Assembly (NCBI GenBank): GCA_025934375.1
Contig: JAICYD010000007.1
Location: forward strand, 1-64,000
Source: Streptosporangiaceae bacterium
GTDB taxonomy: Bacteria > Actinomycetota > Actinomycetes > Streptosporangiales > Streptosporangiaceae
Length of the DNA stretch: 64,000 nucleotides
Reading direction: 5' to 3'
In this document: piece by piece, positions 22,842 to 41,637 of the stretch
Position numbering within the stretch: the first letter of the stretch is position 1
Layout: the number at the start of each line of letters is the position of its first letter
Program-made: the position numbers and the translations under genes
The notes under the pieces: model-generated
Told to the model about the DNA's origin: nothing
Databases searched by the model: none
The model's input: only the letters and a program-made list of their open reading frames with translations

Positions 22842-22946
22842 GCCGCATGAATCTGCCGGGATTCGGGCGCCCTGTCAAGGACGCGGGCTGCCTGGCTGCC
22901 TGGGCGGGTGGCCTCGAATGTCAGTGGGTGGATGCATGATGGGGGG

Positions 22947-25900: not shown

Positions 25901-28109
25901 TGTCGTAGAGGGCACCGTTGTAGAGGGCACTGTCGCAGAGGGCACCGTTGTAGAGGGCAGTGTCGCAGAGGGCAGTGTCGCAGAGGGCACCGTCGCAGAG
26001 GGCACTGTCGCAGAAGGCACCGCGCGGGATGGGGCGGACAGCTGGCTGGCCCGGTTGGCGGCGGAGCGGCGCGTGATCGCCGTGCGGGTAGCCGGGCAGG
26101 ACATGTGGGCAGCCATCGAGGACGGCGGTCGGCTGCGCGACGCGCTCGGAGTGGCCCTGCCGGTGGGCATCCCCGAGGCCTTCAGCGCGCCGGTCGCCGA
26201 TCCACTGGGCGACCTGATGGTGCGATGGGCCAGGACGCACGGACCGTTCCGGGCCGGGGTCGTGGCGGAACGGTACGGGCTCGGCGTCGCGGTGGTGACG
26301 ATGGCCCTGCGCCGGCTGGCGGCGGACGGCCGGATGGTCGAGGGCGAGTTCCTGGGTACCGGGGACAGCGGGCACGGCGGCAGCGAATGGTGTGACCCCG
26401 AGGTCCTGCGGATGCTGCGGCGACGGTGCCTGGCCCGGCTGCGCAAGGAAGTGGAGCCGGTGCCCCCGACGGCGCTGGGCCGGTTCCTGCCCGCCTGGCA
26501 CGGCATCGAGCCGTTCGACGTGGGTGACCTGGTCGCGGGCGCGGGCAGCGCCGGGAGCCGGTACCCCCCGAGCGCGGGCGCGCGGCGATCGCGGCGGCGG
26601 CACGCGGACGCGGGGATGGTGCTTGAGGCGATCGAGCGCCTGGCGGGCGCCCCGGTTCCCGCGTCGGCGCTGGAGACCCTGGTGCTACCGGGTCGCGTGC
26701 CCGGCTACACCCCGGCCCTGCTTGACGAGCTGACCTCGGCGGGGGAAGTGATCTGGACGGGGGCCGGATCGGTGGGCAGCGGCGACGGGTGGCTGGTGCT
26801 CGCGCCCGCCGAGAGCGCGTCGTTCCTGCTGCCCGAGGCGGGCGAGCTGACCACGACTCCGCTGCATGAGGCGATGCTGGTGGCGCTCGACGGCGGCGGC
26901 GGGCTGTTCTTCCGCATGCTGAGCGACCGGGTGGCGGCCGTGACCGATGACCACCCGCCGGAGGATGGCGAGCTCGCGACGGCGCTGTGGGACCTGGCCT
27001 GGGCGGGCCTGGTCACCAACGACACGCTCGCCCCGGTCCGGGTCGTGCTGGGCGGCGGTGGCCAGCCACGGCGGTCAGGCGCCCGCGGCGCCCCCGCGGC
27101 GGGCGGCACCCTTGCGGCCGATCTCCCCGGCGACGGGGTCCCGAGCCTGGGCGGCACCGGTTCCGGTGAGGCGGCCCGCCTGACGAACGCCCGGCCAGGC
27201 CCCGGGGCGTTCCGGGCCGGGATCCCGGGGGTCTTCAACCCGCGACCCGCCGGGCGCAGCTATGGGCGAGGTGGTTCCGGCGGCTACCGGGGAGCCGGCT
27301 ACGGGAGCGCGAGCTACCGGGCCAGCGGGCGCCGCCCGGCGATGCCATCGCGCACCGGCCCGCCCAGCGTCACCGGGCGCTGGTCCCTGCTCCCGGACCG
27401 GGTAGGGCTGCCGAGCAGCGCTGATGGCCCCGCCGGCACGATGCGGGCGCATGCCGTGGCGCTCACCCTGCTGGATCGCCATGGCGTGCTCACCAGGGGC
27501 GCGGTGGCCGCCGAGCGGGTCCCGGGCGGCTTCGCGGCGGTGTACCCCGTGCTGCGGGCGATGGAGGAGACCGGCCAGTGCCGGCGAGGCTACTTTGTCG
27601 AAGGGCTGGGCGCGGCCCAGTTCGCGCTGCCCGGGGCCGTCGACCGGATGCGGGCGCTGGCCGGTGACTTGATGACTCCCGATCCCCCGGCGCCCGCGGA
27701 CTGGGAACTGCCGGCGGCGCGGGCGGTGCCCACGGCGGCGCCGTTCGTGATGGCCGCCGCCGACCCAGCCCAGCCGTATGGCGCGGCGCTGCCCTGGCCC
27801 GAGCGGCCCGAGGACGCCGCCACCGGCCATAAGCCCGGGCGCAAGGCGGGGGCGCTGGTCATCTTGGCCAACGGCGCGCTCGTGTTGTACGTGGAGCGCG
27901 GCGGCAAGTCGCTGTTGTCGTGGACCGATGACCCGGCGCTGCTTGACCCATGCGCGGCCGCGCTGGCCGCCGCCGTGCGCGATGGCGCGCTCGGCCGGAT
28001 CACTGTCGAGCGGGCGGACGGCGGAGCCGTCTACGACACCCCGCTGGCGCGGGCACTGCAGTCCGCGGGATTCCGGCCCACCCCGCGAGGCCTGCGCCTG
28101 CGCGGCTGA
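22947..28109 (+). CDS. lhr: Lhr-family ATP-dependent helicase
   Basis: About 1720 aa. The start is taken at MASGSAVSS because conserved sequence begins at FSPATRAWFEGAF; in-frame starts at 22908 and 22932 also exist. Motifs: Q-like PTQAQAQAW, Walker A APTGSGKT (about 52-59), IIDEVHAV (about 172-179), SATVRPPE, and QRVGRAGH (about 423). The Lhr winged-helix and beta-barrel core follows (to about 850), then a long C-terminal extension. It is a 3'-5' DNA/RNA-DNA translocase linked to repair. Odd points are a GC-rich element between motifs II and III, a GTVAE pentapeptide array (residues about 983-1025), and a Gly/Tyr/Arg-rich stretch near 1420-1460. The length exceeds that of typical Lhr (about 1500). 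Confidence 0.95.
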   Translation: MASGSAVSSADALDGFSPATRAWFEGAFAVPTQAQAQAWRAISKGEDTLVIAPTGSGKTLSAFLWAIDRLAATPPPADPKRRCRVLYVSPLKALAVDIERNLRSPLTGIRHAAHRLGLPEPDIAVAVRTGDTATEERRKLATKPPDILITTPESLFLLLTSQARETLRGVETVIIDEVHAVAGNKRGAHLALSLERLDALAGASGTEPSPLPPGGALPGGRQGGRPPGVQRVGLSATVRPPEVVAAFLGGARPVTVVQPPSAKQIELEVIVPVEDMSDLETAQGLSTGPDGEPTDDPVARRSIWPHVEERVLDLIEEHKSTIVFANSRRLAERLCGRLNELANERAALEGQGLGEHSDADLVIARAHHGSVSRQERSDIEEALKAGKLPAVVATSSLELGIDMGAVDLVIQVESPPSVASGLQRVGRAGHNVGDVSRGVFFPKYAGDLVQSAVVANRMRAGEIEELRIPRNPLDVLAQQVVAMTALDDWPVDELERVIRRSAPFSGLTRPVLEAVLDMLAGRYPGEEFAGLKPRLVWDRVAGVIRGRPGAQKLAVTSGGTIPDRGLFGVFLPAGDGGRQPRRVGELDEEMVYESRVGDVFVLGASSWRIEDITPDRVLVLPAPGQPGKLPFWHGDTPGRPAELGKAIGQAVRELAKLPDEEAVAKVTESGLDELAAANLVRYLADQRQATGHVPDDRTLVVERFRDELGDWRVVLHSPYGDRVHAPWALAITARLRERYGGMDVQALHTDDGIIIRVPDSDEPPPAGIVLIDPDDIGDIITAEVGGSALFASRFRECASRALLLPRRQPGRRTPLWQQRQRSAQLLEVASQYPGFPITLETVRECLQDVFDVPALTELLRDLAARRIRVVEVETPTPSPFGKSLLFRYIGAFMYEGDAPLAERRAQALALDPSLLAELLGTEGLRELLDPAVVAETEADLQHLSPGRRCRDLEALADLLRTSGPLTAREVAARCRVPDGAPAGGTVVEGTVVEGTVAEGTVVEGSVAEGSVAEGTVAEGTVAEGTARDGADSWLARLAAERRVIAVRVAGQDMWAAIEDGGRLRDALGVALPVGIPEAFSAPVADPLGDLMVRWARTHGPFRAGVVAERYGLGVAVVTMALRRLAADGRMVEGEFLGTGDSGHGGSEWCDPEVLRMLRRRCLARLRKEVEPVPPTALGRFLPAWHGIEPFDVGDLVAGAGSAGSRYPPSAGARRSRRRHADAGMVLEAIERLAGAPVPASALETLVLPGRVPGYTPALLDELTSAGEVIWTGAGSVGSGDGWLVLAPAESASFLLPEAGELTTTPLHEAMLVALDGGGGLFFRMLSDRVAAVTDDHPPEDGELATALWDLAWAGLVTNDTLAPVRVVLGGGGQPRRSGARGAPAAGGTLAADLPGDGVPSLGGTGSGEAARLTNARPGPGAFRAGIPGVFNPRPAGRSYGRGGSGGYRGAGYGSASYRASGRRPAMPSRTGPPSVTGRWSLLPDRVGLPSSADGPAGTMRAHAVALTLLDRHGVLTRGAVAAERVPGGFAAVYPVLRAMEETGQCRRGYFVEGLGAAQFALPGAVDRMRALAGDLMTPDPPAPADWELPAARAVPTAAPFVMAAADPAQPYGAALPWPERPEDAATGHKPGRKAGALVILANGALVLYVERGGKSLLSWTDDPALLDPCAAALAAAVRDGALGRITVERADGGAVYDTPLARALQSAGFRPTPRGLRLRG
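23577..23635. repeat. GC-rich palindromic element within lhr
   Basis: Runs of C and G in mirrored blocks (CCCCCCGGGGG..., GCCGGGGGGCCGGC, GGGGGGTCGCCCCCCGGGGG) encode PLPPGGALPGGRQGGRPPG, placed between DEVH and SATVRPPE of the helicase core. It is a divergent member of the dispersed GC-rich family; the GAACGGAGT core is absent. Confidence 0.55.
25896..26020 (+). repeat. 15-bp in-frame tandem repeat in lhr (GTVAE)
   Basis: Eight to nine units of GGCACTGTCGCAGAG and variants encode G-T/S-V-V/A-E pentapeptides between two Lhr C-terminal domains. Confidence 0.9.
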
Positions 28110-28177
28110 CGCCTCCCTCCCGCGCTCCCAGCGGCCCAGCCCTGCCGGGCATGCCGCTAAGCGAGCGCTAAACCAGC

Positions 28178-28217
28178 AACCCGGCACCAGCCATTTAATG
28201 TAACTTTCTGCCGGGTT
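28178..28217 (+). terminator. Hairpin downstream of lhr (terminator candidate)
   Basis: AACCCGGCA (28178-28186) pairs perfectly with TGCCGGGTT (28209-28217) across a 22-nt loop, about 70 bp past the lhr stop. The right arm ends in TT but there is no T-run. Confidence 0.5.
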
Positions 28218-28517
28218 ACCGGGGCGAAGGACGCGCCGGCGTGCGCTGATGCCGCAGCCTCGCGCGAGCAGGACGAGCGAGGCGTATTCCGAACCTGAAC
28301 GTTCACGCGCGCCTGCGTCAGTCCCGCTGCCGCCCGCGCCGGGTACCGGGCTAATCCCCGTCATTGGAGCCGCCGACGGCGCCGGATCATGGAAGGCTTT
28401 CGCTTCCGGTAAGAAAATCGTCTAATACGCGGTTCTTCTCGCATTAGGCGAAAACACTCGCCCCTCTCGGCAACAGGACCGAGAAGCGAGACGGACCCAT
28501 GCGAGAACCTGGGGAAA

Positions 28518-28569
28518 GCCAATGCTGATGGTTGTGCCGCGATTCGCGGCGGCAACCATCAGCATTGGC
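28518..28569. other. Long near-perfect hairpin of unknown role
   Basis: 17-nt perfect arms (28518-28534 and 28553-28569, GCCAATGCTGATGGTTG) enclose a second stem GCCGCG-att-CGCGGC. The two stems together give 23 pairs broken only by a T/GG bulge. It could be a bidirectional terminator, a small RNA or a repetitive element. Confidence 0.65.
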
Positions 28570-28839
28570 CGCGCCCCGTTAAGTCCAGAGCGAAACGCTC
28601 GTGATCGTAGCGACCAGCCAAGATCTCTGTGGAAGGTGAGGTAAGGCGCGGCTGCCCCGGCGGGGCCTGCCAGGTGGCGCTGGCCACGCGGGCGCGCCCC
28701 GCCCGGAGCGCTGGGCCCGGAGCGCTTAGGTCCGCGGGACGCGGCGCCCCGGCCCGGGCGGCCAGGACCACGCGGCCACCCGCTGATCCCGCGGGGTGAA
28801 TGCGAGTCGCGCCCGGCAAGCGCCGGGCCGGCGGCCCAC

Positions 28840-28905
28840 ATGACAAAAATGTCATCGCCTCCGCCGCCCCGGGAGCTTGACATTTAATTCGGGAAAAAGT
28901 TCAAA
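28840..28905 (+). promoter_or_regulatory. Operator and promoter of first membrane-protein/oxidase operon
   Basis: Palindrome ATGACA-aaaa-TGTCAT (28840-28855), then TTGACA (28877-28882), 17 bp, and TTCAAA (28900-28905). The same palindrome and TTGACA occur before the paralogous operon at 34163-34244, which is why I regard it as a real site. Confidence 0.6.
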
Positions 28906-29007
28906 TTACTGACAGCTCATTAAGCATCGTGATTGAGCCGGCCAGTACCGCCCAACCCGCGACGGCGCTTCTGGACTGAAGTTCCCTTCCGCCCGGAGGT
29001 GGTGAGC

Positions 29008-29874
29008 GTGCGTTCTCTGGCGATCCCTGAAAAGGGTGCCGACCGGCGACTCAGCGGCCACGGCATCCTAGTCATGGCAGTCCTGCTAGGCCTTGCGGTA
29101 ATCGGGCTCGATCAATTCCTGCGCGTATCCCCAGCTCAATTCGCCATGCAGCCGGGGACAGAGATCCAGCATTGGATAGCGGACTCGCTAATGGCGACGC
29201 CGCTGTTCGCGGCGGGGATCTTGGCCGGGGACTGGATCGCGGGGCGCGCACGCCTGACGGCGGATCGCCGCACGGACCTCCTCAAGCGGGCGATGCTCAT
29301 CAGCGTGGCCACCGCCCTGGTGCTGTCGCCGGCGTGGTTCCAGGTTGACCGGACCGATAACCCCATCACGTCTCAGCCCCTCGTCTTCCCGCAGGCCCAT
29401 GACAGCGGCGACGTGTACTGGGTGACCTCGCCCGTGATCGTGGCCCTGGCCTGCGCCTGCCTGGTCCCGGTGGCGGCGTGGGCCGGGCACCGGCTCTCCC
29501 GCGGCCTCCGGGCGAGCCGGGCGAGCCGGGCGAGCGGTGCCCTGCGGGTGGCCGCGATGGTCATCCTCATCGGCGCCGTTCCCGTCCTGGCGTGGCTGCT
29601 GCACCAGGCAGCGCTGCACGCCTACTCGAGTCGCGTCTTCTACACCAGCGCGGCGGCCGCCGGCGGGCAGCCGGACGCCGCGCCCTTCGCCCTCGGCTAC
29701 CAGGCCGCCCACGCCCTGCAAGACGGGCTGGCCGGGCAGGCCGCCGGGCTTCCGGTCACGGTCGCGTTCCTGCTGGCCGGCGTCGGCCGCCGGCCAGCAG
29801 GAACCCGCCAGCCGACGCGTATCGGCCGCGGGAACGTCCCCCCGGCCGAACCAGCCACCCCGGAAGGTACCTAA
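29008..29874 (+). CDS. Polytopic membrane protein, partner of multicopper oxidase (copy 1)
   Basis: 288 aa from GTG 29008, chosen because GGAGGT ends 7 bp upstream; the frame extends back to a TTG at 28933. About five membrane segments are visible (GILVMAVLLGLAVIGLDQF, SLMATPLFAAGILAGDWIAG, AMLISVATALVLSPAWF, VIVALACACLVPVAAWAG, VAAMVILIGAVPVLAWLLHQ), plus AAGLPVTVAFLLAGV near the C-terminus. It is clearly homologous to the protein at 34344-35264 (VIGLDQF/VIGLEQF, VFYTSA/VYYTSA, YQAAHALQDGLAG/YQVAHAFQDALAG). I do not know the family. Each copy is directly followed by a multicopper oxidase, so a membrane partner or copper/electron handling role is inferred. Confidence 0.8.
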   Translation: MRSLAIPEKGADRRLSGHGILVMAVLLGLAVIGLDQFLRVSPAQFAMQPGTEIQHWIADSLMATPLFAAGILAGDWIAGRARLTADRRTDLLKRAMLISVATALVLSPAWFQVDRTDNPITSQPLVFPQAHDSGDVYWVTSPVIVALACACLVPVAAWAGHRLSRGLRASRASRASGALRVAAMVILIGAVPVLAWLLHQAALHAYSSRVFYTSAAAAGGQPDAAPFALGYQAAHALQDGLAGQAAGLPVTVAFLLAGVGRRPAGTRQPTRIGRGNVPPAEPATPEGT

Positions 29875-29883
29875 CAGGAAGGC

Positions 29884-32154
29884 ATGAAAGCCATGAAACG
29901 CCTTAGCCGAAGAAACGTGCTCGCACTCGGGGCGGTGGCCGGCACTGGCGCCGCGATCCGCTTCGAGGCACCAACGCTGTTCACGGGGGCCTACGCCTCC
30001 GTCCAGGCCCCGCAGACACCGTTGCCCGGCACGAGCGTCCAGAAGTTCGTCAGCCCGGTGCCGACCTTCGTGGGCAAGCGGGTCTCCGGTCCCAACCTGC
30101 AGGTCAATATGCTCGAGTTCCAGCAGAAGGTGCTACCCGACGCCTTCTACGCCACGCTCGCCGACGGGTTCCGGAGGGGCACTTACGTCTGGGGCTATGC
30201 CAACGGCCAGCTGAACGGCGCGGCGACGCCGCAGTGGCCCGGTGCCTCGCTGGAGGTGAAGCGCGGCTTCCCGGCCACGGTCAAGTTCATTAACAACCTG
30301 CCGACCAGTTCCAACCTTCGCAAGCTTCTCACCGTCGACCAGACGATCCACTGGGCCAACCCCCTGAACGCCTCCATGTCGTTCCAGCCGTACACCGGGC
30401 CGCTGCCGGCAGTGGTGCACCTGCACGGGGGCGAGGACCAGTCGACCTCCGACGGCGTGCCCGAGGGCTGGTTCACCAACACCGGCCTGCACGGCAAGGG
30501 ATACTCGACGGTCTCCCCGACCGCGCCCAACGCGGCGATCTACAATTACCCCAACGGCCAGCAGGCCACCATGCTGTGGTTCCACGACCACGTGCTCGGC
30601 ATCACCCGCCTCAACGTTTACTCGGGGCTGGCCTCCTTCTACCTCATCCGCGACCAGTTCGACACCGGCCTGGCCAGCAACCCGCTCGGGCTGCCGGCCG
30701 GCAACTACGAGGTCGAGATGATGCTCCAGGACCGGCAGTTCGACACCAACGGCCAGCTGCTGTTCCCCGACAGCAACAACAACCCGTCACTGGTGGACGG
30801 CCCGCCGAGCAACCCCGACATCCACCCGTACTGGATCCCGGAGTTCTTCGGCGACGTGAACTGCGTCAACGGCCGGGCGTACCCGTTCTTGTGCGTAGAG
30901 CCGCGCCGCTACCGGTTCCGGTTCGTCAATGGCTCCAACGCGCGGTTCTACCGGATGGGCCTGGTGGACGCGGCCAGCGGGGCGACCGGCCCGGCCGCGT
31001 ACATCATCGGCATGGACGGCGGCCTGCTGGACACCCCCATCAAGATGGCCATGCAGCCGGAGGACGAGAATCCGGGCGTGCCGGGCCCGACGACGCGGCT
31101 GTTCATGGCGCCCTCGGAACGGCTCGACGTCATCATCGACTTCGCCGGCCTGGCCGGGAAGACGCTCACGCTGACCAACGACGGCCAGGTCCCGTTCCCC
31201 AGCGGCGACCCGCTCGACCCGGCCGACCCCACCCGCGAGGTCATGCAGTTCAAGGTCACCTTGCCGCTGCAGGGCACCGACACGTCCTTCAACCCGGCGA
31301 GGGGCGGGTCGCTGCGCGGCGGGCGCAATCAGGAGCCGAAGATCGTGCGGCTGGCCAACGGCGCCGGCGGCCTGGGCGCCGGCGTGACGCCCAACGTCAC
31401 CCGGCAGCTGGTGCTGGTCGAGTATGAGGACCAGAACGGCAGCGGCACGAACACGCAGGGCACGCCGATCATCGACTTGATCAACAACACCAAGTGGAAC
31501 GGGCACCGCGACGGCGGCGGCTTCGCGCCGATCCCCGGGAGCACGCCCGACCAGTTCGGCCAGGGCCTGCAGATCACCGAGCTGCCGCGCGTGGGGTCGA
31601 CCGAAGTCTGGGAGTTCCTCAACACGACGGTGGACGCCCACCCGATCCACGTCCACCTGATCGAGTTCCAGCTGCTGAACCGGCAGGCCGTCACGATCAA
31701 CCCCGACACCGGGCAGGCCGCTTACCTGGACGACTGGTCGACCGACTTCCCCGGCGGCACGTTCAACGGTGAGGCGGCCGACGGGTCGTGGAGCCCGGTT
31801 ACCTATGCCCCGAAGACGTGGATTCCCGGCTACGGCCCGCCGCGTAACTACTTCACGCCGAACGCCGACGGCGCGCTCGGCGGCAACCGGCCCTTCTCGG
31901 CCTACCTGACCGGGCCGGTCATCGCGCCGAACGCAGAGGAGATCGGCTGGAAGGACACCGTCAAGGTCTACCCCGGCTACGTCAACCGGTACATCATCCG
32001 CTGGGCGCCGCAGGCCACCGCGGTCAACGGCGTCTCCCCCGGGCAGAACCTGTACTCCTTCGACCCGACCAAGGGCCCGGCGTACATGCTGCACTGCCAC
32101 ATCCTCGACCACGAGGACAACGAGATGATGCGCCCCTACATCCCGGTCAAGTAG
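29884..32154 (+). CDS. Tat-exported CotA-like multicopper oxidase (copy 1)
   Basis: 756 aa. The Tat signal is SRRNVLALGAVAG near the N-terminus. All four copper motifs are present: VVHLHGG (H179, H181), WFHDHVLGITR (H234, H236), HPIHVHLIEF (H586, H589, H591) and LHCHILDHEDNEMM (H737, C738, H739, H743, axial M748). The pattern and the MMRPY end match the CotA/bilirubin-oxidase/phenoxazinone-synthase branch, which oxidises phenolic or metal substrates and reduces O2 to water. AGGAAGGC precedes the ATG, 9 bp after the membrane-protein gene. A second, very similar oxidase lies at 35261-37528. Substrate unknown. Confidence 0.95.
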   Translation: MKAMKRLSRRNVLALGAVAGTGAAIRFEAPTLFTGAYASVQAPQTPLPGTSVQKFVSPVPTFVGKRVSGPNLQVNMLEFQQKVLPDAFYATLADGFRRGTYVWGYANGQLNGAATPQWPGASLEVKRGFPATVKFINNLPTSSNLRKLLTVDQTIHWANPLNASMSFQPYTGPLPAVVHLHGGEDQSTSDGVPEGWFTNTGLHGKGYSTVSPTAPNAAIYNYPNGQQATMLWFHDHVLGITRLNVYSGLASFYLIRDQFDTGLASNPLGLPAGNYEVEMMLQDRQFDTNGQLLFPDSNNNPSLVDGPPSNPDIHPYWIPEFFGDVNCVNGRAYPFLCVEPRRYRFRFVNGSNARFYRMGLVDAASGATGPAAYIIGMDGGLLDTPIKMAMQPEDENPGVPGPTTRLFMAPSERLDVIIDFAGLAGKTLTLTNDGQVPFPSGDPLDPADPTREVMQFKVTLPLQGTDTSFNPARGGSLRGGRNQEPKIVRLANGAGGLGAGVTPNVTRQLVLVEYEDQNGSGTNTQGTPIIDLINNTKWNGHRDGGGFAPIPGSTPDQFGQGLQITELPRVGSTEVWEFLNTTVDAHPIHVHLIEFQLLNRQAVTINPDTGQAAYLDDWSTDFPGGTFNGEAADGSWSPVTYAPKTWIPGYGPPRNYFTPNADGALGGNRPFSAYLTGPVIAPNAEEIGWKDTVKVYPGYVNRYIIRWAPQATAVNGVSPGQNLYSFDPTKGPAYMLHCHILDHEDNEMMRPYIPVK

Positions 32155-32193
32155 CCAGCCCGTTCCGCCACCACGTCGCGAAGGAGCAGTCCC

Positions 32194-34143
32194 GTGCCCG
32201 GCATGACGTCAGGAGTGACTACCAACGACCCGGTGCTGCAGGCGGCCTTCTGGTCCGCCCTGCTGCGCCAGCTCGGCATCGTTGTCGTGATCTTCCTCGC
32301 CCTCCTGCTGGCGTACGGGCTGCTCCGCCGACGGCTCGCGGGTGCCCCGGTACCCGCGACCGCCACCACGCCCGCGGAGCCGAGGGCACGGCGGATCCTG
32401 CGCGTTTCGTTCGGCATCTTGTGGATCGTGGACGGGATCCTCCAGGTCCAGCCGCAGATGGCCGCGGGCCTTCCGGCACAGGTGGTCCAGCCGGCCGCGT
32501 CATCATCTCCGGGCTGGGTGCAGGCCCTGGTGAACGCCGGCGGCACCATCTGGTCCTTCCACCCCGTCCAGGCGGCGGCGGCCGCCGTGTGGATCCAGGT
32601 CGGGATCGGGCTGTGGATGCTCGTGGTCCCCACTGGCTGGTCCTCCCGGCTCGCCGGGCTAGGCGGCGCGGCCTGGGGGCTGATCGTCTGGATGTTTGGC
32701 GAGGCATTCGGCGCGATCTTCGCGCCGGGGCTGAGCTGGCTGTCCGGGGCGCCCGGCGCGGTCACCCTCTACATCGTCGCCGGCGTGCTGCTGGCCCTGC
32801 CGGAACGGGCCTGGACCGGGCAGTCGCCTGCCGGGGGGACGACCCCGCGGGGCATCATCATCCGTACCCCCCGGGATCCGGCCGATGGAAGGGCGAGTGT
32901 ATCGGCCGGGCAGCGACTCGGCCGACTGCTGCTGGCCGGCATGGGCGCGTTCTGGCTGGGCATGGCGGTGCTGCAGGCGTGGCCAGGGCGCGGCTACTGG
33001 CAAGGCGGCGCCGACGGCACCCTCACGAGCATGATCGACGACATGGCCGGCCTCACGCAGCCGGCGCCGCAGGCCCGGATGATCAACGGGGTCGCGTCGT
33101 TCGCCAGCGCGCACGGCTTTTGGGTGAACCTGGTCGCCGTCGCCGCGCTCGCCCTGGCCAGCCTGGGACTCCTCGCGGGCGCAGGCGCGCCGGCCGGGCC
33201 TGCGAGGCTGCAGACGGCGCTGCCGGCCCGCCCGCGCGTGCTGCGGATCGTCATGCCCGCCGCCATCGCGCTGTGCCTCATCGTCTGGGTCCTGATTCAG
33301 GACCTCGGAGTTCCCGGCGGTCTCGGCACCGACCCGAACAGCATGGTCCCGTGGGTGGTGCTGCTGTGGACGGGCTACCGCGCCGCCACCGGCCAGGAGG
33401 ATTTCTCCCCCGAACGCTCCGTGGCGCCTGCCAGTTCCGCCCGTGGCCCGCTGGCCGGCGGCTGGGCGGCGGCCAGCGCCCGCCCGCTGGCCAGCGCCTA
33501 CTCCGTCGTGGCGGTCGGCGCGCTGGGCATGACCCTGGTCGGGGTCGTGCCGCTGGCGGCGGCCTCGCTCAGCCCGCACGCCGACCCGCTCATCGCACGC
33601 TCCATCGCGGGCGCGCCCTATCAGGTGAACCGGCCGGCCCCGGACTTCCACCTGGTCAGCCAGTCCGGTCAGCCGGTAAGCCTGGCGTCGCTGCGCGGCA
33701 CCGTCACGCTGCTGACGTTCCTGGACCCGCAGTGTACCGATGACTGCCCGGTCGCCACCGAGCTCAAGGAAGCCAGCGCCCTGCTCGGCAGCTCCGCGCC
33801 CCACGTGCGCCTGGTCGCGATCGCGGCCAGCCAGCGGCACTTCGGGACGGCGGACACCCAGGCGCTGACCCGCGCGCAGGGTCTGGACACCGTGCCCAAC
33901 TGGCTGTTCCTCACCGGCTCGGCCGCCCAGCTTCAGGCGACGTGGGGCAAGTACGGGATCTTCGTCTCGCACATGGCCCCGGGCGCGTCGAGCGTGATGA
34001 CTGACATGGTCTTCGTGATCGACAAGGACGGCCAGATCCGCCAGGAGATCCGGGACAACCCCGGCCCGGGCACCATCTCCACGCGGTCCTCGTTCGCGAT
34101 GCTGCTTTCGGATGCCGCCCGGCAGGCGCTGAGCCTGAGCTGA
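32194..34143 (+). CDS. Multi-spanning membrane protein fused to a Sco1/SenC copper-chaperone domain
   Basis: 649 aa, GTG start with AAGGAG 8 bp upstream, 39 bp after the first oxidase. Residues about 20-455 hold roughly eight membrane segments (LGIVVVIFLALLLAYGLL, ILWIVDGILQVQP, AGLGGAAWGLIVWMF, GAVTLYIVAGVLLALP, LLLAGMGAFWLGMAVLQAW and others). Residues about 480-645 form a thioredoxin-fold Sco domain: APDFHLVSQSGQPVSL, copper site DPQCTDDCPVA (CxxxC), and SHMAPGASSVMTDMVFVIDKDG with the third ligand His. Sco proteins deliver copper to exported cuproenzymes, so it probably serves the flanking oxidases. A GC-rich element copy lies in the linker near residue 215. Confidence 0.88.
   Translation: MPGMTSGVTTNDPVLQAAFWSALLRQLGIVVVIFLALLLAYGLLRRRLAGAPVPATATTPAEPRARRILRVSFGILWIVDGILQVQPQMAAGLPAQVVQPAASSSPGWVQALVNAGGTIWSFHPVQAAAAAVWIQVGIGLWMLVVPTGWSSRLAGLGGAAWGLIVWMFGEAFGAIFAPGLSWLSGAPGAVTLYIVAGVLLALPERAWTGQSPAGGTTPRGIIIRTPRDPADGRASVSAGQRLGRLLLAGMGAFWLGMAVLQAWPGRGYWQGGADGTLTSMIDDMAGLTQPAPQARMINGVASFASAHGFWVNLVAVAALALASLGLLAGAGAPAGPARLQTALPARPRVLRIVMPAAIALCLIVWVLIQDLGVPGGLGTDPNSMVPWVVLLWTGYRAATGQEDFSPERSVAPASSARGPLAGGWAAASARPLASAYSVVAVGALGMTLVGVVPLAAASLSPHADPLIARSIAGAPYQVNRPAPDFHLVSQSGQPVSLASLRGTVTLLTFLDPQCTDDCPVATELKEASALLGSSAPHVRLVAIAASQRHFGTADTQALTRAQGLDTVPNWLFLTGSAAQLQATWGKYGIFVSHMAPGASSVMTDMVFVIDKDGQIRQEIRDNPGPGTISTRSSFAMLLSDAARQALSLS
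32826..32880. repeat. GC-rich dispersed element, copy in Sco-fusion gene
   Basis: CCGGGGGGACGACCCC...CCGTACCCCCCGGGATCC. It shares the CCGTACCCCCCGGG half with the copies at 7988 and 58089; the GAACGGAGT part is missing. It encodes AGGTTPRGIIIRTPRDP in a loop between membrane segments. Confidence 0.5.
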
Positions 34144-34162
34144 CTCGCGGGGCGCCGGCCCG

Positions 34163-34244
34163 CCCTCATGACAGAAATGTCATGAGGGAAAACGAATGAT
34201 CGAATGCAGAGGATCTTGACAGCCAGGTTTCCGTATCGTTACAT
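34163..34244 (+). promoter_or_regulatory. Operator and promoter of second membrane-protein/oxidase operon
   Basis: Perfect 26-bp palindrome with arms CCCTCATGACA / TGTCATGAGGG around GAAA (34163-34188), then TTGACA (34216-34221), 17 bp, TTACAT (34239-34244). The ATGACA-nAAA-TGTCAT core equals that at 28840-28855. The gap from core to TTGACA is 32 bp here and 21 bp there, a difference of about one helical turn. It could also terminate the gene ending at 34143. Confidence 0.65.
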
Positions 34245-34343
34245 GTAATCGACGCATTTCAACAATTGATAAACTTCAGAAACGGCGCGGCCCCGATGGC
34301 CGCAGTCGGCCGGTTTTCTCTTCGGCCTGGGAGGAGATGACGA

Positions 34344-35264
34344 GTGCCAGATTTCGCGCGCCCGAAAACGGCCAGCACGACCGCGCCGGACGGCCAGGGC
34401 ATATTCACCATGTCGCTGGTGCTCAGCTTTACCGTTATCGGGCTGGAGCAATTCCTCTATACGGCGCCGGCGCAATTTCAGGAGGCGCCGGGCTCGGGGA
34501 TCTTGCGGTGGGCATGCGACTCACTGATCGCCCTTCCGTTGTTCGCGCTGGGCGTGTGGTCCGCCCAGCGGATAGCCGACTGGCGCGGCATCGGCGCGGA
34601 CGGCCGCGCCGACCTGCTCCGGCGGTCCCTGCTCACCACGGCCAGCCTGGCCGTGGTGCTGATACCGGGCTGGTTCGCCCACAACTGGCTGAACAACCTC
34701 ACCCAGAGCGAGCCCCTGGTCCCGGTGCACGTCCACGGCAAGACCATTGGCGCGAACGTGCACTGGGTGAGTGACCCCGTGGTGTTCGCACTGCTGCTCG
34801 TCCCCCTGCTCGGGCTGGCCGGCTGGGGCGGCTACCTGATTGCCGCCCGGGTGCGGTTCCGCATCCCCGCGGCCGCCGACATCGCCGTCCGGGCGGCGCT
34901 GATCGCGGTGAGCGCCGCCGCCGCGCCGGCGGTGGCCTGGTTCGTGCAGAAGGCCGCTGACCGCTCCAATTCGGCCCAGGTGTACTACACCAGCGCGCTG
35001 CTTTCCGTCCACGTACATACGCATGTCCTTTTCAAGGACGGGCGGCCGGTCGCGCTTCCCAAAGGGCCGCCGGTCACCCCGGCGCCTTATGTATTCGCCT
35101 ACCAGGTTGCCCATGCTTTTCAGGATGCCCTCGCGGGCATGGCCATTGGCCTTCCGGTGGCCATCGTCGCGCTGTTCTGGATGGCCCGGCGGCATCGCGC
35201 CGGTGACCAGCAAATTGACCACCAAGTCCCCATCGTGTCCCTTAGGGAGGCAACCGAACAATGA
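34344..35264 (+). CDS. Polytopic membrane protein, partner of multicopper oxidase (copy 2)
   Basis: 306 aa, GTG start 9 bp after GGAGG. Same architecture as the protein at 29008-29874: VIGLEQFLYTAPAQF, SLIALPLFALGVWSAQ, LAVVLIPGWFAHNW, VVFALLLVPLLGLAGWGGY, AYQVAHAFQDALAGMAIGLPV. Two outside loops are richer in His than in copy 1: VPVHVHGKTIGANVHW (about 132-148) and SVHVHTHVLFKDG (about 221-233), which could bind copper. The stop overlaps the start of the second oxidase (ATGA), so translation is coupled. The leader upstream contains a GGCC-rich hairpin near 34290-34330. Family not recognised. Confidence 0.8.
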   Translation: MPDFARPKTASTTAPDGQGIFTMSLVLSFTVIGLEQFLYTAPAQFQEAPGSGILRWACDSLIALPLFALGVWSAQRIADWRGIGADGRADLLRRSLLTTASLAVVLIPGWFAHNWLNNLTQSEPLVPVHVHGKTIGANVHWVSDPVVFALLLVPLLGLAGWGGYLIAARVRFRIPAAADIAVRAALIAVSAAAAPAVAWFVQKAADRSNSAQVYYTSALLSVHVHTHVLFKDGRPVALPKGPPVTPAPYVFAYQVAHAFQDALAGMAIGLPVAIVALFWMARRHRAGDQQIDHQVPIVSLREATEQ

Positions 35265-37528
35265 GCAGTGAAGGCCGCATGAGCCGCCGCACCCTGATGA
35301 AGGTGGCGGGCCTGGCGGGCGCGGGAGCGGCGATCCGCATCGAGGCACCCGCGGTATTCGGGTCCGCGAGCGCGAGCGTCAACGTTCCCCAGACCCCGCT
35401 GGACGGCAGCACCCTCACCAAGTGGGTCACTCCGGTACCGACATTCAACGGCCGCCGGGTGCAAAGCTCCACCCTGCAGGTCGGCATGTACGAGTTCCAG
35501 CAGAAGGTGCTGCCGGACTCGGTCTACGCCTCACTGCCCGCCCCGTTCAACAAGGGCACCTACCTGTGGGGATACGGCGTCGGCGCTCCCGGTGCGGCGC
35601 CCAACTACCCTGGCTTGACGGTCGAGCAGAAGAAGGGCACCGCGGCCACCATCACCTACGTCAACAACCTGCCGACCAACCCGGTGCTGCGCAAGTACCT
35701 GACCTATGACCAGACGATCCACTGGGCCGATCCGCTGAACACCGGCCACACGGCCGCCACGTACACCGGCCCGATTCCCACCGTGGTCCACCTGCACGGC
35801 GCCGAGGACCAGTCAACGTCGGACGGCGTGCCCGAGGCCTGGTTCACCAACAACGGCCTGCACGGCAAGGGGTACTCGACCTTCCAGGCCACGTCACCCA
35901 ACGCCGCCGCCTACAACTACCCGAACGGCCAGCAGGCCACGACCTTGTGGTTTCACGACCACACGCTGGGCATCACCCGGCTCAACGTCTACTCCGGCCT
36001 GGCCGCCTTCTACCTGCTACGCGACCAGTTCGACACCGGCCTGGCCAGCAACCCGCTCAAGCTGCCGGCCGGGAACTACGAGGTCGAGCTGATGCTCCAG
36101 GACCGGCAGTTCGACACCAACGGGCAGTTGCTGTTCCCCGATAGCAACGCCAACCCCTCGCCGGTCGACGGGCCGCCGAGCAACCCCAACATCCACCCGT
36201 ACTGGATCCCGGAGTTCTTCGGCGACGTGAACGTCGTCAACGGCCGGGCCTACCCGTTCCTGAAGGTGGAGCCGCGCCGCTACCGGTTCCGCTTCCTGAA
36301 CGCCGCCAACTCGCGGTTCTACCGGATGGGCCTGGTCAACGCGAGCAGCGGGGCGATCGGCCCGGCGTTCTACGTCATCGGCAACGACGGCGGCCTGCTG
36401 GATGCCCCGGTCAAGCTCACCGGCCAGACCGAGCCGCCCACCGACGGCACCCCGTCCCCGACGACCCGGCTGTTCCTGGCGCCGTCCGAGCGCATGGACG
36501 TGATCATCGACTTCACCGGGCTGGCCGGGAAGACGTTCACGCTGACGAACGACGGGAACGTGCCGTTCCCCAGCGGCGACCCGCTGGACCCGGCCGACCC
36601 GACCCGCGAGGTCATGCAGTTCCAGGTCACGCTGCCGCTGCAGGGCACCGACACCAGTTACAACCCGGCGACCGGAGCGGCGCTGCGCGGCGGGTCCAAC
36701 CAGGAGCCGAAGATCGTCCGGCTGGCCAACCCCGCGACCGGCGCACTGGCGGCCGGGGTCACCCCCTACCACACGCGGCAACTCGTGCTGTTCGAGTTCG
36801 AGGACCCGTTCGGCAACAACGGCAACACCGCTGGCACCCCGATCATCGACGTCATCAACAACACCAAGTGGAATGGCCGCCGCGACGGCGGCGGGAACCA
36901 GCCCGTACCCGGCTCGGGCACCGACCAGTTCTCACAGGACCTGCACATCACCGAGTTCCCCAGGGTCGGCTCGACCGAGGTGTGGGAGTTCCTCAACACG
37001 ACGGTGGACGCCCACCCCATCCACATCCACCTGATCCAGTTCCAGCTCATCAACCGGCAGGCGGTGGTCCTCGACCCGGACACCGGCCAGGCTGACTACC
37101 TGAACGCCTGGGCGGCGGCGTTCCCCGGCGGGACGTTCAACGGCGAGGCGGCCGACGGCACCTGGAGCCCGATCACGTATCAGCCTGGTACTATCATCCC
37201 TGGTTACGGGCCTCCGCTAAACTACTTCAACGAGAACGCGGACGGCGCGATGGGCGGTAACCCCGCCTTTTCCCCGCACCTGACCGGTCCCGTTATCCCC
37301 CCGAATCCGCACGAGATCGGCTGGAAGGACACGGTCAAGACGTATCCCGGTTACGTGAACCGGTTCGTGATCCGCTGGGCCCCGCAGGCCACCGCGGTCA
37401 ATGGCGTGTCCCCCGGGCAGAACCAGTACTCGTTCGATCCCACCGTGGGCCCGGCGTACATGGTGCACTGCCACATCCTCGACCACGAGGACAACGAAAT
37501 GATGCGCCCGTACATCCCAGTACACTGA
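35261..37528 (+). CDS. Tat-exported CotA-like multicopper oxidase (copy 2)
   Basis: 755 aa. The Tat motif is MSRRTLMKVAGLAG. It is a close paralogue of the oxidase at 29884-32154, with long identical stretches such as DRQFDTNGQLLFPDSN. All copper motifs are intact: VVHLHGAED (H177, H179), WFHDHTLGITR, HPIHIHLIQF and VHCHILDHEDNEMM. The start ATG overlaps the stop of the membrane-protein gene. A perfect 36-bp palindrome follows the stop and should end the transcript. The retained ligand set in both copies implies both are active; the duplication may give different substrates or expression. Confidence 0.95.
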   Translation: MSSEGRMSRRTLMKVAGLAGAGAAIRIEAPAVFGSASASVNVPQTPLDGSTLTKWVTPVPTFNGRRVQSSTLQVGMYEFQQKVLPDSVYASLPAPFNKGTYLWGYGVGAPGAAPNYPGLTVEQKKGTAATITYVNNLPTNPVLRKYLTYDQTIHWADPLNTGHTAATYTGPIPTVVHLHGAEDQSTSDGVPEAWFTNNGLHGKGYSTFQATSPNAAAYNYPNGQQATTLWFHDHTLGITRLNVYSGLAAFYLLRDQFDTGLASNPLKLPAGNYEVELMLQDRQFDTNGQLLFPDSNANPSPVDGPPSNPNIHPYWIPEFFGDVNVVNGRAYPFLKVEPRRYRFRFLNAANSRFYRMGLVNASSGAIGPAFYVIGNDGGLLDAPVKLTGQTEPPTDGTPSPTTRLFLAPSERMDVIIDFTGLAGKTFTLTNDGNVPFPSGDPLDPADPTREVMQFQVTLPLQGTDTSYNPATGAALRGGSNQEPKIVRLANPATGALAAGVTPYHTRQLVLFEFEDPFGNNGNTAGTPIIDVINNTKWNGRRDGGGNQPVPGSGTDQFSQDLHITEFPRVGSTEVWEFLNTTVDAHPIHIHLIQFQLINRQAVVLDPDTGQADYLNAWAAAFPGGTFNGEAADGTWSPITYQPGTIIPGYGPPLNYFNENADGAMGGNPAFSPHLTGPVIPPNPHEIGWKDTVKTYPGYVNRFVIRWAPQATAVNGVSPGQNQYSFDPTVGPAYMVHCHILDHEDNEMMRPYIPVH

Positions 37529-37585
37529 CCCCTCCCGCACTGAGGTGCCTCCGAGCCGCGACCTGGCTGCTCGGCAGCACCCAGA

Positions 37586-37621
37586 GGTTGCCATCGCCGG
37601 ACTAGTCCGGCGATGGCAACC
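37586..37621 (+). terminator. Perfect 36-bp palindrome after second oxidase gene
   Basis: Arms of 18 nt (GGTTGCCATCGCCGGACT and its complement) with no spacer, 57 bp past the stop. RNA from either strand would form an extremely stable stem, so it is a likely terminator for the oxidase operon. Confidence 0.75.
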
Positions 37622-37728
37622 AAGGGATCATCAGGAACAGACGCCGAACCCGCAACGGCTGGATGTGGGCCCCAGTAAGCAGGCGGATGGCTCGCGAACC
37701 GAGCCACCACGAGCATTGGAGACCTCAC

Positions 37729-38538
37729 ATGCTGCCGATGAGGAGCAGCCGACCGGGACGAGCCCCGGGCCGGGGCCGGCGCGGGCGCGCCCGGGCACTA
37801 GTCATCGCCGCCGCGACGGTGACGGCGCTGGTGGCGCTGGCCGCGCCCGCCTGGGCGCACATCACGGTAACCCCCGGGACCGCCCAGGCGGGATCGGCCG
37901 CCGAGCTGACCTTCCGCGTCCCCAACGAGGCGGCCAAGGCCAACGTCACCCAGGTCCAGATGCAGATCCCCACGGACCACCCCATCGCCCAGCTTCTCGT
38001 CAAGCCGGTCCCCGGCTGGACCATCACCGTCACCACGGTGACCCTGGCCAAGCCGGTCACCACCGACGACGGGACGTTCAGCACCGCCGTCTCCGAGGTC
38101 ACCTGGGCGGGCGGCACCATCGCTCCCGGTCAGTACCAGGACTTCTCGGTGTCCGCCGACCCCCTGCCCGACGGGGTTTCCCAGCTGGCCTTCAAGGCGA
38201 TTCAGACCTACTCCGACGGTAGCGTCGTCCGCTGGATCGACCTGCCGCAGGCGGGCCAGCCCGAGCCCGAGCACCCGGCCCCCATCCTCACCCTGGCCCC
38301 GGCGAGCGCGTCCCCGGCCACCGGGGCCACCGCACCCGGGAACGCTCAGCCGAACGCGACCGGGACCGCCACCAGCAACCCGACCGCCACCTGGCTGGGC
38401 GTGGCCGGCCTCCTAGCCGGGCTGCTGGGCCTGGCCACCGGGCTGAGCGCGTGGCGGCGGACTTGCCTGGCCGCCGGCGGCCCGGGCGCGCCCGGGAAAG
38501 CGACGAAGGATGCCGATCGTGAAGTCAGCAGCCGCTAG
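37729..38538 (+). CDS. YcnI-family (DUF1775) exported copper-binding protein
   Basis: 269 aa from ATG 37729, with GGAG 7-8 bp upstream. Twin basic N-terminus, then signal core ALVIAAATVTALVALAAPAWA. Cleavage after AWA would leave a mature N-terminal His (HITVTPGTAQAGS), the copper brace known for YcnI. The DUF1775 domain (to about 165) has TFRVPNEAAKANVTQVQMQIP, VKPVPGWTITV and EVTWAGG. A Pro/Ala linker and a C-terminal membrane helix (WLGVAGLLAGLLGLATGLSAW) anchor it. It overlaps the CopC-CopD gene by 29 bp, as in ycnI-ycnJ pairs, indicating periplasm-side copper uptake or trafficking. Confidence 0.93.
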   Translation: MLPMRSSRPGRAPGRGRRGRARALVIAAATVTALVALAAPAWAHITVTPGTAQAGSAAELTFRVPNEAAKANVTQVQMQIPTDHPIAQLLVKPVPGWTITVTTVTLAKPVTTDDGTFSTAVSEVTWAGGTIAPGQYQDFSVSADPLPDGVSQLAFKAIQTYSDGSVVRWIDLPQAGQPEPEHPAPILTLAPASASPATGATAPGNAQPNATGTATSNPTATWLGVAGLLAGLLGLATGLSAWRRTCLAAGGPGAPGKATKDADREVSSR

Positions 38539-40567
38539 CGGCGGGGCCGGCGAGGCGGGCGGCCGCCGGTTCCGGCGGGCGCGGCTGGCCGGGGTAAGAG
38601 TGAGCGTGCTGGCCGGGGCCGCCGCGATCGCCGTCGCCGCCCTCAGCGCCGCCCTCAGCGCCGCCCTCGCCCCGGCGGCGATGGCGGCCCCCGCGGCAAC
38701 CGTCAGGCCCGCGCTTCCCGCGCACGCCACGCTGGTCACCACCAGCCCCGCCGACGGCGCCGTGGTGGCCGCCGAGCCAGCCAGGATCACGGCGGGCTTC
38801 GACCAGCCCATCGGGGTCAGCGCGGACAGCCTCGTCGTCTACACCCCCGGCGGGCAGCGTGCCGACGCCGGCGGCACGCAGCACAACGGGCCGTTCGGCA
38901 TCGCCGTCTCGCTCACCCCGGGCCTCGGCCAGGGCACCTACACGGCGGAGTGGCACGTCGTGTCGGCCGACTCCCACGAGGTGCAGGGGGCGTTCACGTT
39001 CTCGGTGGGCGCGCCGAGCGTCACCCACGTCCCGGCGATCAAGTCACCCGACGCGGCGACGGTCGCGACCTTGTACGCCATCGCGCGCTGGCTGGAGTAC
39101 GCGTTCTTCACGCTGCTGGCGGGCGCGGTCGCGTTCCTCATCGTCTGCTGGCCCTCCGGTGCCCGCCGTAAGGGGGTGCCGGGGCTGGTCATCGCCGGCT
39201 GGGCCGGGCTGATCGGCTCGACGCTGGCCGCCTTGCTGCTGCAGGGCCCGTATTCGCAGAACGTTGGCCTGGGCCTGCTGCTGAACCCCGCCCTCGAGGT
39301 GTCCACGCTGCACACCCGCCTGGGCAGCACGCTGCAGGCGCGGCAGGTGCTCACTATCTGCGCGGCCATCGCCGCCACGGCGATCATCCGCCGGCTGCCG
39401 CGCCTGACCGCTAGGGTCCGGGTGGTGGCCGGGACCGGGTGGGCGATCGTGGTCGCCGGCATGGCCGCCACGTGGGCGACCGCCGACCACGCCAGCACGG
39501 GCTTCCAGGTACCGCTGGCGATCGCCGCCGACATGGTGCACCTGATCGCGATGGCGGTGTGGGGCGGCGGGCTGGTCATGCTGGCCGCGTTCACGCTGCG
39601 CGGGCCGTCCAGCCGCGCGGCGGCGCTGGCAGTGCGCCGGTTCTCACCGATCGCCCTCGGCTGCGTCATCGCGGTGGCCGTCACTGGCGGGTACATGGCC
39701 TGGCGGCTGATCGGCACCTGGGGCGCGCTGTTCGGCACCGCGTACGGCTGGCTCATCATCGCCAAGTCGGCTGGCTTCGCGGTCCTGGTCGGCCTGGGCT
39801 ACCTGGCCCGCCGCTTCATCCGCCAACGCCTGCTAGCCCAGGGGGGCGAACGGAGTATCTCCCTGGAACCCCCGATACGGCCGCCCTTTAACGGCCTAGA
39901 ACCCCCAGCGGAGGCGGCCGCCGCCAGCGAGCTCGCGCTGGCGAGCGTGGCGGCCGGCCGCGCCGGCAGCGGGGCCGGCCCGGCCGACGACGGCGGTCAC
40001 CGGCCAGGCAGCGACGGAGCCGGCGGTAACGGTCCCGCCGAGGAAGGGCCCGACGATCAGCCGCCGGATGGCGGCCAGCCGGACGGGGAGCCGGACGATC
40101 CCCAGGTGCCGAGCATGCGGGACCTGCGGCTGTCGGTTGTCGCCGAGGTAGGCGTGGTGGCCCTCGTCCTCGCGGCGACGGCGATCCTGGTCAACACGGC
40201 CACCGGCCGGGAAAGCTACGCGCCCCCGGTCAACGCCGTCGAGCAGTTCGACACCGGCGGCCCGAATGGCACGGGCTCGGTGGACGTCGTGGTCACGCCG
40301 GCCCGGCTCGGCGGCAACCAGCTGACGATGACCTTCGACACCCCGGCGGGCCGCGCGTTCGTCCCCGCCCAGGTCCAGGCCGCGCTGTTCCTCCCGGCCC
40401 GGAACCTCGGCCCGCTGCCCGTCACGCTTACCCCGGCCGGCCCGGGCCGCTACCGGGCCAGCGCGGCGACATTCACCTTCACCGGCCAGTGGCAGCTACG
40501 TATCACCGTGCGCAGCGACGACTTCGACGAAATCACCGTCGTCGTCCCCGTCGTCGTCCACCAGTGA
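38510..40567 (+). CDS. CopC-CopD fusion copper transport protein (YcnJ-like)
   Basis: 685 aa. Signal peptide, then CopC domain (about 65-165) starting after AHA with AHATLVTTSPADGAVV and the ligand region WHVVSADSHEVQG. About eight membrane helices of CopD follow (about 185-440: WLEYAFFTLLAGAVAFLIVCW, VHLIAMAVWGGGLVMLAAF, SAGFAVLVGLGYLARRF). A low-complexity Gly/Asp/Pro linker (about 450-535), another helix (VGVVALVLAATAILV), and a C-terminal YtkA/FixH-like beta domain ending VVVPVVVHQ complete it. Role: copper import across the membrane with YcnI. ATG 38510 or GTG 38519 are both possible starts. A GC-rich element copy lies at the CopD/linker junction. Confidence 0.92.
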   Translation: MPIVKSAAASGGAGEAGGRRFRRARLAGVRVSVLAGAAAIAVAALSAALSAALAPAAMAAPAATVRPALPAHATLVTTSPADGAVVAAEPARITAGFDQPIGVSADSLVVYTPGGQRADAGGTQHNGPFGIAVSLTPGLGQGTYTAEWHVVSADSHEVQGAFTFSVGAPSVTHVPAIKSPDAATVATLYAIARWLEYAFFTLLAGAVAFLIVCWPSGARRKGVPGLVIAGWAGLIGSTLAALLLQGPYSQNVGLGLLLNPALEVSTLHTRLGSTLQARQVLTICAAIAATAIIRRLPRLTARVRVVAGTGWAIVVAGMAATWATADHASTGFQVPLAIAADMVHLIAMAVWGGGLVMLAAFTLRGPSSRAAALAVRRFSPIALGCVIAVAVTGGYMAWRLIGTWGALFGTAYGWLIIAKSAGFAVLVGLGYLARRFIRQRLLAQGGERSISLEPPIRPPFNGLEPPAEAAAASELALASVAAGRAGSGAGPADDGGHRPGSDGAGGNGPAEEGPDDQPPDGGQPDGEPDDPQVPSMRDLRLSVVAEVGVVALVLAATAILVNTATGRESYAPPVNAVEQFDTGGPNGTGSVDVVVTPARLGGNQLTMTFDTPAGRAFVPAQVQAALFLPARNLGPLPVTLTPAGPGRYRASAATFTFTGQWQLRITVRSDDFDEITVVVPVVVHQ
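39838..39885. repeat. GC-rich dispersed element, copy in CopC-CopD gene
   Basis: GGGGGGCGAACGGAGTATC followed by a degenerate right half (TCCCTGGAACCCCC). It encodes GGERSISLEPP after the last CopD helix, in a different reading frame from the copy at 58135. Confidence 0.75.
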
Positions 40568-40635
40568 CCGCCGCGCACCCGGCACCAGGCGCTGGTGCCC
40601 GGCGCCGTCGCGGCCGACGCGATCGGCTGGGGTGA

Positions 40636-41277
40636 ACATCGCGAGGAAATGGTCGTCCAGTTCCCGGGCGCTACCGCCACGCCACCGCCCTCGACCGCGA
40701 GCTCATCGCCGACCTCGCCGAGCACGCCCGCGAAGCCGAGCCCATCATCCCCCAGTTCGCCGAGCCCTGGCTGGAGGTAGAGCGGGAGGCGGCCATCATT
40801 CACGCCTGGGCCCTGGACGTGCTCCCCGGTCAGTTCCAGACGTACGACTACGCATGCGCCATCTTCATCAAGGGAGGCTTGGACGAAGACCGGGCGGCAG
40901 CGCGAGCGGCTGCCCGCGTCAAGCGCGCGGGGATCCTCGACGGCCCCGAAGGCACCCGGATGACCGCCATACTCTACGAACCCATCCTGCATCGCCTCGT
41001 CGGCACCTTCGAGATCATGGAAGCCCAGCTCGCCCGCCTACTGGCGCTGGCCGACCGCCCCAACATCGTCGTCCAGGTGATCCGGGAACCCGCGTACTTC
41101 CCGGGCCATAACGGGCAGTTCGAGATCGCCAGGGGCCGGATGATTCCCGATACCCTGAACATGATCAACATCGAGGACCACACCACGACCACGCCAGCGG
41201 TGGTCGACATGGCCATCGCGTTGTTCGAAGTTCCCGCCACCGCCTGGCGTGCCCTGCTCGCCGAGGTCCGGGGTTAG
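40636..41277 (+). pseudogene. 5'-truncated remnant of an XRE/DUF5753 regulator
   Basis: The in-frame stretch after a TGA at 40633 reads LIADLAEHAREAEPIIPQF, EPWLEVEREAAIIHAWA, VLPGQFQTYDYACAIF, and later FEIMEAQLARLLALADRPNIVVQVIR and FPGHNGQFEIA...TWRALLAEVRG-like sequence. This is the DUF5753 domain that follows an XRE helix-turn-helix in Streptomyces-type regulators. The DNA-binding half is missing and the gene abuts copC-copD (68 bp). The only early start in frame is a GTG at 40819 without a ribosome site, giving 152 aa. The usual DUF397 partner gene is absent. Probably a relic. Confidence 0.7.
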
Positions 41278-41408
41278 CCCGACGTCACCGCGCGCCACTG
41301 GCGGACGTGCCACGGGCCGACAACCCGGTTCAGCACGAACGGGTCGCCGCTGGCGAACTCCTCGGCCGCCTCGCGGGTGGTGAAGAGATTTTTTACCCGG
41401 AAGAGTTT
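41274..41408 (-). pseudogene. C-terminal fragment of a YciI-like protein
   Basis: 44 codons ending FTTREAAEEFASGDPFVLNR and VVGPWHVRQWRAVTSG, which match the C-terminal half of YCII-related proteins. The frame has a stop at 41409, no start codon, and its upstream end lies inside the 34-bp palindromic repeat at 41400. The 3' end overlaps the DUF5753 remnant on the other strand. Confidence 0.6.
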
Positions 41409-41433
41409 TCATCGCATACGATGAAAACTCTTC
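41400..41433. repeat. 34-bp palindromic repeat, left copy
   Basis: Perfect 15-bp arms GAAGAGTTTTCATCG / CGATGAAAACTCTTC around CATA. A 29/34 identical copy in the same orientation lies at 46111-46144, on the other side of the molybdenum hydroxylase locus. Confidence 0.85.
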
Positions 41434-41637
41434 ATGATAGAAAAACCCTTCGGCAAAGCGGAGCCGCCGACCGCGCGGGCAGGCTTGTCCGGCATCGTCA
41501 CCGTTATTTGCGGCAGAACCACTCACCGAGGTAAGTCTCAGGTGTCCGCGAGATGGCATGTCCCTTGCGGTACGTGGAGTAACAGTGGCGGCTGGGGCAG
41601 GGGTGCATTGCGGGAAAGGTGACGCGCGCCCCGCCGG

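Follow-up and report, generated by a model that had tools for sequence, protein, structure and literature searches.

Two described enzymes, the CotA laccase of the Bacillus spore coat and the phenoxazinone synthase PhsA, have the same architecture as the multicopper oxidases (MCOs) described here, including all of the T1, T2 and T3 ligand motifs and the axial methionine. Compared with CotA, the present enzymes are about 240 residues longer, carry a Tat signal and are encoded alongside a membrane partner and a Sco gene. Maturation of the extracellular copper oxidase GlxA in Streptomyces lividans depends on a Sco protein (PMC4736821), and the Streptomyces sco operon (Sco, ECuC and a CopCD-like transporter; GlxA, DtpA) resembles our locus in that a CX3C Sco protein is encoded near CopC-CopD, serves an extracellular copper oxidase and involves a Tat substrate (PMC3603459; PMC4736821). 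It differs in that here the proposed target would be an MCO of the same operon, the Sco protein carries a large fused membrane domain, there is an orphan membrane protein (MP), and ECuC and DtpA are absent. The cutFOG operon of Rhodobacter offers a precedent for a dedicated partner whose gene precedes that of an MCO: CutF is reported to be needed for the activity of the MCO CutO and to act via a putative Cu-binding motif (PMC8456105). MP is a different kind of protein from CutF, being a polytopic protein of about 300 aa with no conserved Cu-binding motif. In the Bacillus ycnKJI system for copper acquisition by YcnI and YcnJ, a DUF1775 YcnI protein adjoins a CopC-CopD protein, as it does here, although in our case the pair lies beside an MCO island and outside its recurring core.

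The window analysed is a stretch of 64,000 nucleotides (positions 1 to 64,000 of contig JAICYD010000007.1, assembly GCA_025934375.1) from a Streptosporangiaceae bacterium of soil, referred to below as G000. Between positions 29008 and 37528, two tandem MP-MCO units flank a gene for a membrane-Sco fusion, with the genes for YcnI and then CopC-CopD downstream, and all of the genes from MP1 to CopC-CopD are co-directional (Table 1). The start of MP1 is best set at a GTG codon 10 nt past a GGAGG sequence, in agreement with the coordinate given in the initial annotation, and an ATGA overlap joins the MP2 and MCO2 genes. That annotation had also described the units as duplicated, and this is borne out by the homology of MP1 and MP2 (∼37–38% identity, E 5e-46) and by the 74% identity of MCO1 and MCO2 over their full length. 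As the identical tandem order occurs independently in a separate metagenome-assembled genome (MAG), G399, the arrangement is not due to misassembly of this window. Further downstream, an ORF at 40819–41277 matches DUF5753, which we take to be the C-terminal part of XRE-type regulators; it has no HTH domain and is possibly a remnant.

Table 1. Features of the accessory block and the evidence for each.
Feature	Position	Strand	Evidence
MP1: membrane protein, ∼6 TM helices, orphan family	29008..29874	+	family search, alignment
MCO1: Tat-exported CotA-like multicopper oxidase, 756 aa (predicted)	29884..32154	+	Pfam Cu-oxidase_2/_3, PDB CotA
Membrane domain + C-terminal Sco domain fusion	32194..34143	+	Pfam SCO1-SenC, alignment
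MP2: second (putative) membrane partner, 306 aa	34344..35264	+	homology to MP1
MCO2: second CotA-like multicopper oxidase, 755 aa (predicted)	35261..37528	+	Pfam, PDB, motifs
YcnI-like (DUF1775) exported copper-binding protein; optional neighbour	37663..38538	+	Pfam DUF1775 E 2e-47
CopC-CopD fusion; optional neighbour, copper uptake	38510..40567	+	Pfam CopC E 4e-21, CopD E 3e-18
Whole accessory block between lhr and coxL	28110..41637		∼105 bp gap in G401

Both oxidases carry the Pfam Cu-oxidase_2/_3 domains and start with a Tat motif (SRRNVLA in MCO1). MCO1 matched CotA in the PDB with an E value of 8e-68, and among solved structures MCO2 was closest to CotA (E 4e-73), then to phenoxazinone synthase (8e-43) and bilirubin oxidase. 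The four Cu-ligand motifs (HxHG, WxHDH, HPIHxH and HCHxxxH...M) are complete in MCO1 and MCO2, as they are in all of the full-length MP-linked MCO homologues found in other genomes. Judged by their ligand motifs and closest structures, the two proteins are thus predicted to be CotA-like multicopper oxidases. More specific assignments were rejected: against the model for PhsA as an o-aminophenol oxidase (NF045554) the proteins scored 226–230 bits, far under the equivalog cut-off of 950, and against that for the cuprous oxidase CueO (NF008205) they scored 88–92 bits with a cut-off of 525 and have no Met-rich region, methionine making up ∼1.6–2.1% of their residues.

The block sits between lhr (22908–28109) and a gene for a CoxL-like molybdopterin oxidoreductase (41638–44001, minus strand). 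In G401, which belongs to the same genus, a gap of about 105 bp separates the ends of lhr and coxL; in G402 the two are separated by other genes, among them a transposase-like ORF, and in G403 a different gene follows lhr. Because the lhr-coxL junction differs in these three genomes, the block is an accessory one at a variable site; loci L112, L110 and L111 document the variable junction.

The initial annotation had proposed that the membrane protein is kept beside an oxidase, an idea that homologues found mostly elsewhere would contradict. MP was searched for in about 397 phylum, 343 family and 395 class genomes, which are overlapping sets, and in a further pattern-based scan of 84,980 species. 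Real homologues were present in only four genomes, all of them MAGs: G000 with two copies, G399 (GZL_ISSM_2_bin.89) with four, and G416 (CP_BM_ER_R8_5) and G397 (clean1703) with one each, the last three being Streptosporangiaceae or actinobacterial MAGs. A CotA-like MCO gene lies directly downstream of MP for all eight copies, so that within these four genomes of one family the proposed neighbourhood holds without exception. Seven of the eight linked MCOs are long, and that on contig C36 of G399 is broken after ∼160 aa of MCO-like sequence. At this locus (L014, 924–2558) MP is in frame with the first ∼160 aa of the MCO and unrelated sequence follows; the fusion is either a broken unit or a chimera created in assembly. 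On another G399 contig (C64) the MP and MCO genes also overlap by ATGA. The Sco fusion is the next gene after the MCO in each of the five triads that could be checked (unit 1 of G000, unit 1 of G399, G399 C64, G416 and G397). In the MP tree and the MCO tree alike, each unit of G000 pairs with its counterpart in G399 (unit 1 with unit 1, unit 2 with unit 2) with full support, from which it follows that the tandem is older than the split of these genomes; elsewhere the MCO tree is resolved only in part, and we do not claim full congruence of the two trees. Weak profile matches to MP in G092 and G614 were chance matches to an EamA-like transporter and an acyl-CoA-dehydrogenase-like ORF, and further matches of 16–18 bits over short stretches were, by score, of the same kind. 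A search of plasmids with MP gave no match.

Oxidases related to MCO1 and MCO2 also occur without MP. The relative G400 has the MCO, with the Sco fusion beginning just after it and no MP upstream, and MP is therefore not strictly required. G491 and G432 have more distant MCOs (about 42–50% identical by tblastn) and no MP, and none of 23 further CotA-like MCO loci in the family (∼32–37% identical to MCO2) has an MP homologue; at two of the 23 a multi-TM gene ends within ∼100 bp upstream, encoding an MFS-like protein in one case and a P-type-ATPase-like fragment in the other. The MCO-Sco pair of G400, together with the very narrow distribution of MP over four genomes, would be consistent with MP being a lineage-specific passenger that lies beside the MCO by shared descent of an island and has no role in its function. 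We consider this quite unlikely. MP has diverged much faster than MCO (38% against 74% identity between the units of the window) and the linkage has nevertheless persisted across this large divergence. It also holds at different genome sites, both on two further contigs of G399 and in G416, where lhr is on one contig and the MP unit on another and the core is therefore not bound to one site. Translational coupling and purifying selection argue in the same direction: between G000 and G399, dN/dS was 0.36 for MP1 and 0.27 for MP2 (0.26 for MCO1, 0.21 for MCO2 and 0.27 for the Sco fusion), and with values of 0.27–0.36 MP is, by this measure, a maintained protein under purifying selection. Given that the pairing is found in every relative with MP, these results suggest that the membrane protein serves the oxidase, with the sample of four MAGs from one family representing few independent events.

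The Sco fusion has a SCO1-SenC domain at residues 483–614, above the Pfam cut-off, and a CX3C motif (C514/C518) and a distal histidine (H593) that are invariant in five aligned homologues, the features expected of a Sco/SenC copper chaperone. Its AlphaFold model has a mean pLDDT of about 47 (5-row alignment). For the membrane part, hhalign identified a stand-alone membrane protein as a homologue (E 1.5e-22), and a DoxX-like label for this domain was dropped, there being no Pfam match behind it. The stand-alone homologues form a family of ∼340 aa with no Pfam match, encoded near CopA/CsoR genes (L081, 16310–17323; paralogues at L073, L077 and L084). Many members of the Streptosporangiaceae encode a full-length Sco fusion, beside COX1, CtaG, Cu-ATPase or VKOR genes. 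At L080, L072, L087, L076 and other loci it is found beside ∼210-aa exported-looking and ∼400-aa lipoprotein-like proteins, in clusters that also contain CtaG and COX1 genes; one protein of each size was tested and neither matched a Pfam family above the cut-off. Since in this family the fusion is usually beside respiratory oxidase and copper-ATPase genes, it is not dedicated to the MP-MCO system; it is a general copper-enzyme assembly or delivery protein of the Streptosporangiaceae that has been brought into the MP-MCO module, and it may serve respiratory oxidases as well.

MP itself, a protein of ∼300 aa with about six TM helices, gave no significant match in Pfam, NCBIfam, PHROGs or the sequences of the PDB, which agrees with the earlier view that it could not be placed in any recognised family. 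MP2 has a histidine-rich stretch, VHVHTH, near residues 221–226, and in an alignment of eight sequences H257 is the sole invariant histidine and no cysteine or methionine is conserved. The AlphaFold model is helical and of low confidence (mean pLDDT about 47, 8-row alignment). A profile of MP matched neither the membrane domain of the Sco fusion nor the stand-alone paralogue of that domain in profile-profile comparison, and a role as a CtaG-type assembly factor was rejected, there being no profile similarity to Caa3_CtaG (hhalign probability 0.1%). The strict pairing of MP with an oxidase, and the use of the same Sco fusion by the heme-copper oxidase clusters of relatives, raise the idea of a respiratory or energy-linked system in which MP would be a quinol- or electron-transferring subunit feeding the MCO as a terminal oxidase. 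This is very unlikely, as a cytochrome b-type protein needs at least two conserved TM histidines and the single invariant one leaves MP with no bis-His heme site; there is also no conserved cysteine cluster, and MP matched none of the cytochrome b, CtaG and quinone-reductase families.

The YcnI protein, whose mature N-terminus reads AHITVTPG, and CopC-CopD had been included by the initial annotation in the same system as the oxidases. Only part of that grouping was sustained: the copper-delivery Sco fusion belongs to the recurring unit, but YcnI and CopC-CopD lie outside its conserved core. Neither YcnI nor CopCD had a match beside any of the other MP-MCO units covered, and neither G397 nor G416 has a YcnI match anywhere in its genome; a dedicated role for YcnI-CopCD was rejected because these two genomes lack YcnI. 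In G402, which has no MP, YcnI and CopC-CopD adjoin a different CotA-like MCO, 31% identical (L107, 2157–6600), suggesting a more general association of YcnI-CopCD with MCOs that extends beyond the MP core. Such an association, the copper-handling neighbours of the oxidases in the window and the fact that CueO is a more distant relative of these enzymes would fit a copper-tolerance module, in which the MCO would be a CueO-like cuprous oxidase detoxifying Cu(I) extracellularly with YcnI, CopCD and Sco as partners. We regard this as unlikely: the MCOs are nearest to CotA and PhsA and not to CueO, their low methionine content leaves no Met-rich Cu(I) region, YcnI and CopCD are of the uptake and not the efflux type and are not conserved with the core, and no Cu-exporting ATPase or CsoR was seen within the block.

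The explanation that we favour, at about even chances, is that the locus forms an accessory module built around an exported laccase-type oxidase, in which the Sco fusion would load copper and MP would act as a dedicated membrane partner. The MCO would be made in the cytoplasm and, to judge from its signal motif, exported via the Tat pathway. Outside the membrane, the membrane-tethered Sco domain would supply or redox-prepare copper for it, a step that we have modelled on the action of Sco on GlxA in S. lividans (PMC4736821) and that the intact CX3C motif and distal histidine would underlie. MP would be co-translated with the MCO and contact it, most likely as an anchor or an assembly/maturation factor rather than in electron transfer or copper transport, since it has one invariant histidine and no conserved cysteine or methionine. 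YcnI and CopC-CopD would add local copper acquisition in this genome. The substrates of the MCOs are probably small phenolic-type compounds or metals, oxidised with O2. We infer, as the initial annotation did, an envelope copper-oxidase system in which MP and MCO may form a complex. A stronger proposal, that MP founds a new family of MCO-specific partners and that MP, MCO and Sco form a stable membrane-bound complex for copper loading in situ, is possible but doubtful; if true, the complex would be an assembly type not described for CotA-like laccases.

The operon is thus real and recurring and contains an unclassified membrane protein, the surrounding pieces being of known kinds. The rarity of MP, in four genomes, limits its general reach. 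In actinobacteria, the copper supply and surface retention of exported multicopper oxidases are poorly known, and a small module of an oxidase, a membrane Sco protein and a dedicated, fast-evolving membrane partner would make a compact, testable model, with MP as a new family of membrane proteins among the factors that assemble copper enzymes.
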